From contig JASKKH010000010.1 of NCBI GenBank assembly GCA_030154265.1, positions 1-57,911 on the forward strand: DNA of 57,911 nt, read 5' to 3'. Numbering within the stretch: the stretch's first letter is position 1; each line of letters opens with the position of its first letter. The DNA comes from Clostridia bacterium. Lineage in GTDB: Bacteria; Bacillota; DSM-521; Neomoorellales; Neomoorellaceae. A model generated the notes under the pieces. That model was not told where the DNA came from. It was given only the letters and a program-made list of their open reading frames with translations, and ran no database searches. The translations under genes and the position numbers were made by a program. Shown here piece by piece: positions 3,213 to 4,580 of this stretch.

Positions 3213-3329
3213 GTGGCTAAAACAACAGCTTTTATCTTACTTGCCCTTATCGGCGGTAGTACGCTTTATGTTCTTTATATAGGGGTCCTATTGCCTCTGT
3301 TTCAACCATATTTTAAAACCAAACAATAG
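3213..3329 (+). CDS. Small single-span membrane protein, 38 aa, unknown
   Basis: A short frame starts at GTG 3213 behind a strong AAGGAGGTG (3198-3206) with good spacing. The product is 38 aa: four polar residues (VAKT), about 25 hydrophobic residues (FILLALIGG, LYVLYIGVLLPLF) and a short basic tail ending KTKQ. It would be one transmembrane helix. The gene stands alone, oriented away from dnaG. I do not recognise a family. The support is the ribosome binding site and the clean membrane pattern rather than homology. Confidence 0.5.
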   Translation: MAKTTAFILLALIGGSTLYVLYIGVLLPLFQPYFKTKQ

Positions 3330-3344
3330 GGTACCCTTTTCCAG

Positions 3345-3373
3345 CTGACTTTAATTTTTTTATATGATATACT
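3345..3373 (+). promoter_or_regulatory. Extended -10 promoter for a short transcript
   Basis: CTGACT (3345-3350), a 17-nt spacer and TATACT (3368-3373). An upstream TG makes the -10 an extended TGATATACT. No coding frame follows before the terminator that ends near 3459, so it most likely drives a small RNA. Confidence 0.5.
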
Positions 3374-3379
3374 ATGCAA

Positions 3380-3459
3380 TGAAGGGCAATACCTTCATCT
3401 TTCTTAAAACCTCCCTTTTTAACTATTTTTTAAGGAGTACCTGAGGTACTCCTTTTTTT
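3380..3459 (+). ncRNA. Candidate small regulatory RNA, about 80 nt
   Basis: The segment is bounded by an extended -10 promoter and an intrinsic terminator and has no convincing coding frame. Its 5' end can form a small hairpin (GAAGG 3381-3385 with CCTTC 3392-3396). An A/T-rich stretch with CCTCCC (3410-3415) follows, and then the terminator hairpin. A single-stranded CCUCCC is complementary to Shine-Dalgarno sequences. C-rich loops of this kind are how several Gram-positive sRNAs pair with mRNA start regions. Function is inferred from layout only. Confidence 0.45.
3432..3459 (+). terminator. Intrinsic terminator of the candidate sRNA
   Basis: A 10-bp perfect stem, AAGGAGTACC (3432-3441) with GGTACTCCTT (3445-3454), loop TGA, followed by a T run. 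Confidence 0.8.
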
Positions 3460-3509
3460 GTTTTTATCCAGGTATAAGATACTCATTAAATGGTTATATT
3501 TATATAACG

Positions 3510-3590
3510 GAAGGTGTTGAAAGAAATCCTGCCGCTCGTTTTGTCAGCGAGCGGATAGCCTGACAAGCGAAGAGATTTCTTCTCACCTTC
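3510..3590. other. Pseudoknot-forming inverted-repeat element
   Basis: Nested complementary segments: an outer stem of GAAGGTG (3510-3516) with CACCTTC (3584-3590) and AAGAAATC (3521-3528) with GATTTCTT (3574-3581). Inside is a hairpin of CCGCTCG (3532-3538) with CGAGCGG (3548-3554). Its loop segment TTGTCAG (3541-3547) is complementary to CTGACAA (3560-3566). That is an H-type pseudoknot enclosed in a closing stem. It lies right after the dgt stop codon (3594) and lacks the T run of an intrinsic terminator. Either strand could be the functional RNA. I cannot match it to a known riboswitch or ribozyme class. Confidence 0.55.
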
Positions 3591-3593
3591 TAT

Positions 3594-4580
3594 TTATGTT
3601 GCAAAACCCGCCGGCACAAAAAGCTTTGTATATCGGAGTATCGCATAGCGGTCAGTCATACCAGCTATATAATCACATGCCCTTCTGTAAACATCATTTG
3701 TATCAACACCCTGAGGTAAGGCCTCAGGCTTATTTAAATAATATAAATATAGCTGTTTTAACATCTTTTTGGCTTTATCTTCTTCAACTTTGGCTTTAGA
3801 ACCTATATAAACATTTTCAAATAAGAAATCTCTTAAATCGTCAGTAGCTTGCTGAACTTCAGGACTCATACCGATAATACCCTGTTTCCAACTGAACCGT
3901 ATCATGTCGGTTACCATAGTATGAATTCGCTCACGGTGATTATAGCCTAATACTTCCAAGCAATTTTTAGGTAGTTGATTTAAGTTTATGATATTAGCCC
4001 TTAAAGCATCATCGATGTCATGGTTAATATATGCTATGCGATCAGCAATACGTATAATTTGCCCTTCCAATGTTTTTGGCTTTTTAGGTCCAGTATGATG
4101 GACAATACCATCTCTAACTTCCCAAGTAAGGTTTAACCCCCCGTTGCCTTCTAATACTTCAACAACTCTCAGACTCTGAAGATTATGTTTAAAACCTCCC
4201 CGTACTACTTCATTTAATGCTTCTTCCCCAGAGTGACCAAAAGGAGTATGACCTAAATCATGACCTAAAGCAATGGCCTCAGTTAGGTCTTCATTCAAAC
4301 ATAAGGCACGAGCTATGGTTCTGCTAATCTGAGCAACTTCTAAAGTATGAGTTAAACGAGTACGAAAATGATCCCCTTCAGGAGCAATAAATACCTGAGT
4401 TTTATGTTTTAAGCGCCTAAAAGCTTTACAGTGTATAATCCGATCTCGATCACGTTGGTATTCCGTACGAATGGGGCAGGGCTCCTCCGGTCTAACTCGA
4501 CCACGAGTTTCGCTACTTAAGCTTGCCCATGAACCTAGATTCTTTTTTTCCAGTTTTTCAGCCTCTAACCGCAGGAGCAT
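3594..4580 (-). CDS. dgt: dGTPase-like HD-domain deoxynucleotide triphosphohydrolase
   Basis: A 328-aa protein of the Dgt family, which hydrolyses dNTPs (classically dGTP) to deoxynucleoside and tripolyphosphate. The N-terminus has the signature DRDRIIHCKAFRRLKHKTQVF. The metal-binding HD residues are visible in RLTHTLEVAQI and ALGHDLGHTPFGHSGE, with a later D in RIADRIAYINHDIDDA. The length suits the shorter Gram-positive subfamily. The start is ATG behind GGGGGTAAGG. It is the last gene of its run, directly upstream of a structured element. Confidence 0.92.
   Translation of the reverse strand: MLLRLEAEKLEKKNLGSWASLSSETRGRVRPEEPCPIRTEYQRDRDRIIHCKAFRRLKHKTQVFIAPEGDHFRTRLTHTLEVAQISRTIARALCLNEDLTEAIALGHDLGHTPFGHSGEEALNEVVRGGFKHNLQSLRVVEVLEGNGGLNLTWEVRDGIVHHTGPKKPKTLEGQIIRIADRIAYINHDIDDALRANIINLNQLPKNCLEVLGYNHRERIHTMVTDMIRFSWKQGIIGMSPEVQQATDDLRDFLFENVYIGSKAKVEEDKAKKMLKQLYLYYLNKPEALPQGVDTNDVYRRACDYIAGMTDRYAILRYTKLFVPAGFAT

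Follow-up and report, generated by a model that had tools for sequence, protein, structure and literature searches.

The window analysed here is a stretch of 57,911 nucleotides from a Clostridia bacterium of the Neomoorellaceae (contig JASKKH010000010.1). A compact structured element at 3510-3590 lies on its plus strand, converging with the dNTPase gene dgt and preceded by promoter-like signals. The features of the locus are listed below by their positions in the window; fractions refer to 66 aligned homologues.

3472-3476, plus strand: putative -35 element GTATA of the sigmaF/sigmaG type, with no mismatches to the sigmaF consensus at 15-nt spacing and found at the same place in homologues
3492-3501, plus strand: putative -10 element GGTTATATTT, ending about 8 nt before the stem
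3509-3598, plus strand: RNA gene of about 88 nt, both ends predicted from the promoter position, the covariance-model match and the position of the U-run in homologues
3510-3528, plus strand: 5' strand of the closing stem P1 (outer 3510-3516, inner 3521-3528), 7 of 7 modelled pairs covarying
3529-3531, plus strand: junction J1/2, CUG (C 65/66, U 66/66, G 66/66)
3532-3538, plus strand: 5' strand of hairpin P2, 7 of 7 pairs covarying
3541-3547, plus strand: 5' strand of the pseudoknot in the P2 loop, with its core GUCA at 3543-3546, supported by covariation
3548-3554, plus strand: 3' strand of P2, supported by covariation
3555-3557, plus strand: junction J2/3, AUA (A 59/66, U 66/66, A 66/66)
3558-3568, plus strand: 2-bp helix P3, formed on either side of the pseudoknot's 3' strand (CUGACAA, 3560-3566), supported by covariation
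3569-3573, plus strand: junction J3/1, GAAGA (57-66 of 66 per position)
3574-3590, plus strand: 3' strand of P1 (inner 3574-3581, outer 3584-3590), supported by covariation
3590-3600, plus strand: weak U-tract after P1, the presumed terminator, placed by the U-run of homologues
3594-4580, minus strand: dgt (dNTPase), convergent neighbour, an open reading frame

The first-pass annotation had described three sets of complementary arms in this element, arranged as an H-type pseudoknot inside a closing stem, and all of them are present. On the plus strand the outer part of P1 pairs GAAGGUG (3510-3516) with CACCUUC (3584-3590) over 7 bp and its inner part pairs 3521-3528 with 3574-3581 over 8 bp, the hairpin P2 is made of 7 bp between 3532-3538 and 3548-3554, and in the window copy UUGUCAG (3541-3547) pairs with CUGACAA (3560-3566) over 7 bp as the pseudoknot. 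This arrangement is equivalent to a three-way junction with pairing between loops 2 and 3. The arms also exceed chance as had been claimed, with a folding z of about -4: the plus strand reaches a minimum free energy of -38.5 kcal/mol, whereas shuffled sequences average -23.9 +/- 3.7 (z -3.95; none of 200 shuffles as good). The opposite strand of the element folds well too (z -4.41).

The element had been called unclassified, and a comparison with the 4,227 families of Rfam agreed. The window copy gave no match at the gathering score and only three chance-level matches (10-13 bits) at E values up to 10, eight divergent homologous loci gave none at the element at E up to 1, and no Rfam ribozyme family matched the window copy or these eight homologues. 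A literature search of open-licence papers found no description of the pseudoknot RNA.

A DNA search of relatives located the element beside dgt across the family and into the order. A covariance model (R1) built without the pseudoknot matched the window copy at 3516-3586 (E 3e-22) and found one strong copy in each of 21 of the 22 genomes of the order; in the exception (G005) dgt is a fragment at a contig end, so the RNA may sit in an assembly gap. With the successor model (R2), 61 genomes of an even phylum sample of 398 each showed a single strong copy (E no higher than 4e-11), a lower bound because of the strict search filters; these carriers span 17 families, and R1 recovered 60 of them. 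Named records with the RNA include Moorella thermoacetica, M. mulderi, M. stamsii, M. sulfitireducens and Thermanaeromonas, as well as Syntrophomonadaceae, Peptococcaceae and Desulfitobacteriaceae genomes. Eight weak matches in the phylum that had no P2 (L143-L144 and L146-L151, at most 27 bits) were excluded as likely chance. An exact-motif scan, the one search that covered Bacilli and Clostridium proper, returned 27 matches, of which 18 were strong and all clostridial; the other nine (16-27 bits), eight of them from Actinobacteria, Proteobacteria, Bacteroidota and a cyanobacterium and the ninth from the genome of an uncultured member of the Clostridia, were taken as chance. No second copy turned up in the window's genome or in any carrier of the order or the phylum sample, and this single copy per genome speaks strongly against a mobile repeat, the check on which the earlier proposal depended. 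To judge from these searches, the element is one copy of a single-copy RNA family absent from Rfam.

For covariation, 66 homologues (alignment A4; 64 distinct sequences) were aligned with a covariance model from which the pseudoknot had been left out; in an earlier alignment of 21 sequences (A2) all three helices already showed covariation. The compensatory changes expected of a structured RNA were found. Paired cells amounted to 90.0% in the 66 homologues, compared with 67.2% in shuffles and no more than 40% once the structure was slid, double-change cells numbered 396 against 125 in shuffles, and every pair of P1 and P2 had changes on both sides. After APC correction of the mutual information, the 18 highest-ranking of the 2485 column pairs all fell in P1 (three as outward extensions), P2 or P3. 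The last of these helices, G3558-C3568 and C3559-G3567, flanks the 3' strand of the pseudoknot, and its column pair 49/58 (rank 18 of 2485) is CG in 59 sequences and UA in 5 with no violations. Within the pseudoknot, pair 33/53 is CG in 57 and UA in 5 with 2 unpaired, pair 29/56 is GC in 22, CG in 12, AU in 8 and UA in 2 with 19 of 63 unpaired, the two central pairs are invariant in the alignment, and pair 36/50 had no support, 45 of 64 sequences not pairing there. On this comparative evidence the pseudoknot is real, with 4-6 of its 7 bp conserved, and the fold is a three-way junction made of P1, P2 and the 2-bp P3, with loops 2 and 3 paired to each other. The unpaired CUG, AUA and GAAGA are nearly invariant across the 66 homologues. 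A miniature homologue (L091, G002:C1:3656-3717) is 9 nt shorter and has a P2 of about 3-4 bp, with GUCA/UGAC and the junctions kept.

The putative promoter of the window copy reads GTATA-N15-GGTTATATTT and is followed by P1 from 3509/3510. The same signal recurs in homologues amid diverged sequence as G(T/C/A)ATA, 15-18 nt, GGNNANAATA or CATAATA, and then P1. Promoters were scored against the sigma consensus sequences of Bacillus subtilis, a limit of the comparison. By this measure, 19 of the 66 homologues have no mismatch to the sigmaF consensus, compared with 0.1 in shuffles that keep two-base blocks, and 53 of 66 are within one mismatch of the sigmaF or the sigmaG consensus, compared with 2 of 66 on the reverse strand. 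Upstream matches to sigmaE, sigmaK and sigmaH stayed at background level in the 66 homologues; those to sigmaA were slightly raised, probably because the TATAAT-like -10 is shared. A 15-nt spacer is the common one for sigmaF (PMC5942855), and in clostridia the promoters of both sigma factors are similar to the Bacillus ones, those of sigmaF having a G ahead of the -10 (PMC3789822). Two internal controls are in keeping with this: a SASP gene of the window's genome has GCATA-N17-CATACTA, and homologues of the small RNA CsfG in the same genera have GTATA-N16-18-CATAATA. The exact form GTATA-N15-16-GGNNANAATA has only three matches in the genome, one of which (G000:C66:1171-1200) precedes a gene for a LysM/M23 peptidase-like protein that could plausibly belong to the forespore.

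From the promoter position, the RNA would start at about 3509, 7-8 nt after the -10 element. As to its end, the first-pass annotation had seen no U run. That is nearly so for the window copy, whose U-tract (CUAUUUAU) is weak, but most homologues have a U-run directly after P1: a T-run of at least four follows the core in 49 of 66, compared with 22 of 66 on the opposite side. These runs were counted in a fixed 25-nt window, a duplex-fitted stem end being confounded by A/U pairing.

In most families the RNA is located between dgt and dnaG and is convergent with dgt. This conserved neighbour of most loci is missing from others: the genes close to the RNA are galT and an MgtC-like one in one family (f30) and pssA in another (f52), as named from translations. 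In four loci (L104, L118, L119 and L125) the RNA and its promoter are inverted together between dgt and dnaG, whose own orientation is unchanged. No constant downstream gene was found in sense; the downstream gene is antisense and changes between families. The variable neighbours and the four flipped loci point to a stand-alone RNA gene, and with its own predicted promoter and U-run end the RNA has the make-up of a forespore sRNA gene.

Two other features lie just upstream on the same strand. A second sRNA-like gene (3345-3465) has a sigmaA-like promoter (CTGACT...TATACT), a small 5' hairpin TGAAGGGCAATACCTTCA, a C/U-rich anti-Shine-Dalgarno stretch AAAACCTCCCTTTTT and a strong terminator AAGGAGTACCTGAGGTACTCCTTTTTTT; it is conserved in 7 relatives, has no Rfam match and resembles the FsrA/RoxS-type sRNA layout. 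At 3213-3329 there is a conserved 38-aa open reading frame with a single membrane helix (VAKTTAFILLALIGGSTLYVLYIGVLLPLFQPYFKTKQ), found in many dgt-linked relatives and preceded by a GTATA...GGTAAAAT-like signal.

By the presence of sigG, the RNA is restricted to endospore formers. The sigmaG gene was found in 60 of the 61 carriers and in 273 of the 337 non-carriers of the phylum sample, the single exception among carriers being an 81% complete genome. Conversely, 60 of 333 genomes with sigmaG carry the RNA compared with 1 of 65 others (Fisher p 2e-4, ignoring phylogeny and with few non-spore-formers within the carrier families).

The known RNA that most invites comparison is CsfG (Rfam RF00516 'ylbH'), a forespore sRNA of endospore formers, which is likewise a stand-alone small RNA gene with the same sigmaF/sigmaG promoter type in the same genera. 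The window's genome has a CsfG homologue of its own at G000:C54:26277-26409 (E 8.7e-7, below Rfam's cut-off), and many genomes with the pseudoknot RNA have CsfG at another locus, all matches again below the cut-off; the Rfam threshold for RF00516 misses clostridial CsfG in nearly all relatives. Identity of the two RNAs was excluded, as they occupy separate loci on different contigs and the element has no match to RF00516 at E up to 10. They are unrelated in sequence and differ in structure as well, CsfG having C/U-rich unpaired stretches and the new RNA a pseudoknotted junction, and the pseudoknot RNA is the more tightly structured. A possible GAAGAG/CUCUUC pairing between the two is a candidate interaction. 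Bvs196 (S547) of Bacillus is also a forespore sRNA controlled by sigmaF and sigmaG (PMC9147052), but it measures 294 nt, is limited to Bacillus and is placed at hinT-ecsA. Kissing-loop three-way junction RNAs, such as those of the purine riboswitch architecture, share the closing stem, two hairpins, loop-loop pairing and conserved junctions, whereas the new RNA has a P3 of only 2 bp, an unrelated sequence, no downstream sense gene and no Rfam match to them. Type III antitoxin (ToxI-like) RNAs are also small H-type pseudoknot RNAs, yet the new RNA has no repeats, adjacent toxin gene or Rfam match.

One rival reading is an antisense forespore sRNA of the kind proposed for CsfG or Bvs196, in which the unpaired CUG and GAAGA or a transiently opened P2 loop would bind mRNAs. 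Such a role would suit a stand-alone gene with a predicted promoter and terminator-like end, and Bvs196 binds mRNAs in vitro (PMC9147052). We regard it as rather unlikely, however, given that the invariant bases cluster in a compact junction and not in an exposed seed, and that the P2 loop is engaged in the pseudoknot.

A self-cleaving ribozyme, perhaps one of the pseudoknotted classes such as pistol in rearranged form, appears very improbable. About 20 nearly invariant core bases surround the pseudoknot, as is typical of small ribozymes, and AUAG and AGCG are reminiscent of pistol. Beyond such resemblances, sequence comparison gave this early suggestion nothing in its favour: the Rfam ribozyme models do not match, no conserved cleavage-site flank lies outside the closed structure, and the RNA is single-copy with its own predicted promoter. 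It is at least as improbable that the element acts in cis in the dgt-dnaG-rpoD region as a dgt mRNA 3'-end structure, a dnaG leader or a riboswitch. Its usual place between dgt and dnaG and the good fold of the minus strand would speak for it, but the promoter and the U-run are on the other strand from dgt, the element is flipped in four genomes and its neighbours are unrelated in two other genome groups. The 3'-end structure proposed at first thus gives way to an RNA that reads against dgt from its own predicted forespore-type promoter amid variable neighbours, and the riboswitch-like element fails for want of a consistent sense gene downstream. A DNA palindrome or mobile repeat (a REP-like element, bidirectional terminator or protein-binding site, the last of these apparently with nothing to support it) is extremely unlikely despite the long inverted repeat between convergent genes, as there is one copy per genome, the promoter is oriented and covariation of the pseudoknot and the 2-bp helix can be explained only if a single strand folds.

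We conclude that the element is probably a stand-alone plus-strand RNA gene of an unregistered family, with a forespore sigma promoter and a transcript of about 88 nt. The RNA polymerase with sigmaF and/or sigmaG would start the transcript at about 3509, and P1 with the U-tract would end it at about 88 nt, so that the RNA would accumulate in the developing spore. There it may act in trans by way of its invariant junction, a trans-acting structured forespore RNA being suggested by the single copy, the predicted promoter of its own, the trans position and the invariant junction. Since the likely antisense loop sits in the pseudoknot and the invariant bases in the junction, a structured RNA on which a conserved forespore protein, the ribosome or an RNA polymerase component docks would be likelier than an ordinary antisense sRNA.

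To our knowledge, very few conserved RNAs have been described for spore development, and little has been established about what they do. More tentatively, the RNA could represent a previously unknown compact pseudoknotted class, shared by spore-forming anaerobes of no fewer than 17 families. Produced in the forespore, it would use its invariant three-way junction to bind a dedicated partner, be it a protein, the ribosome, the polymerase or a metabolite. The single copy, tight structure and retention across deep lineages suggest that it is probably under strong selection, and it illustrates that Rfam can still lack a bacterial RNA family that is well conserved. With the consensus, strand, predicted ends and promoter in hand, its expression and function are directly testable in sporulating carriers, for example Moorella. 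If the more tentative reading is true, endospore development would have a structured RNA component that belongs to none of the known families.
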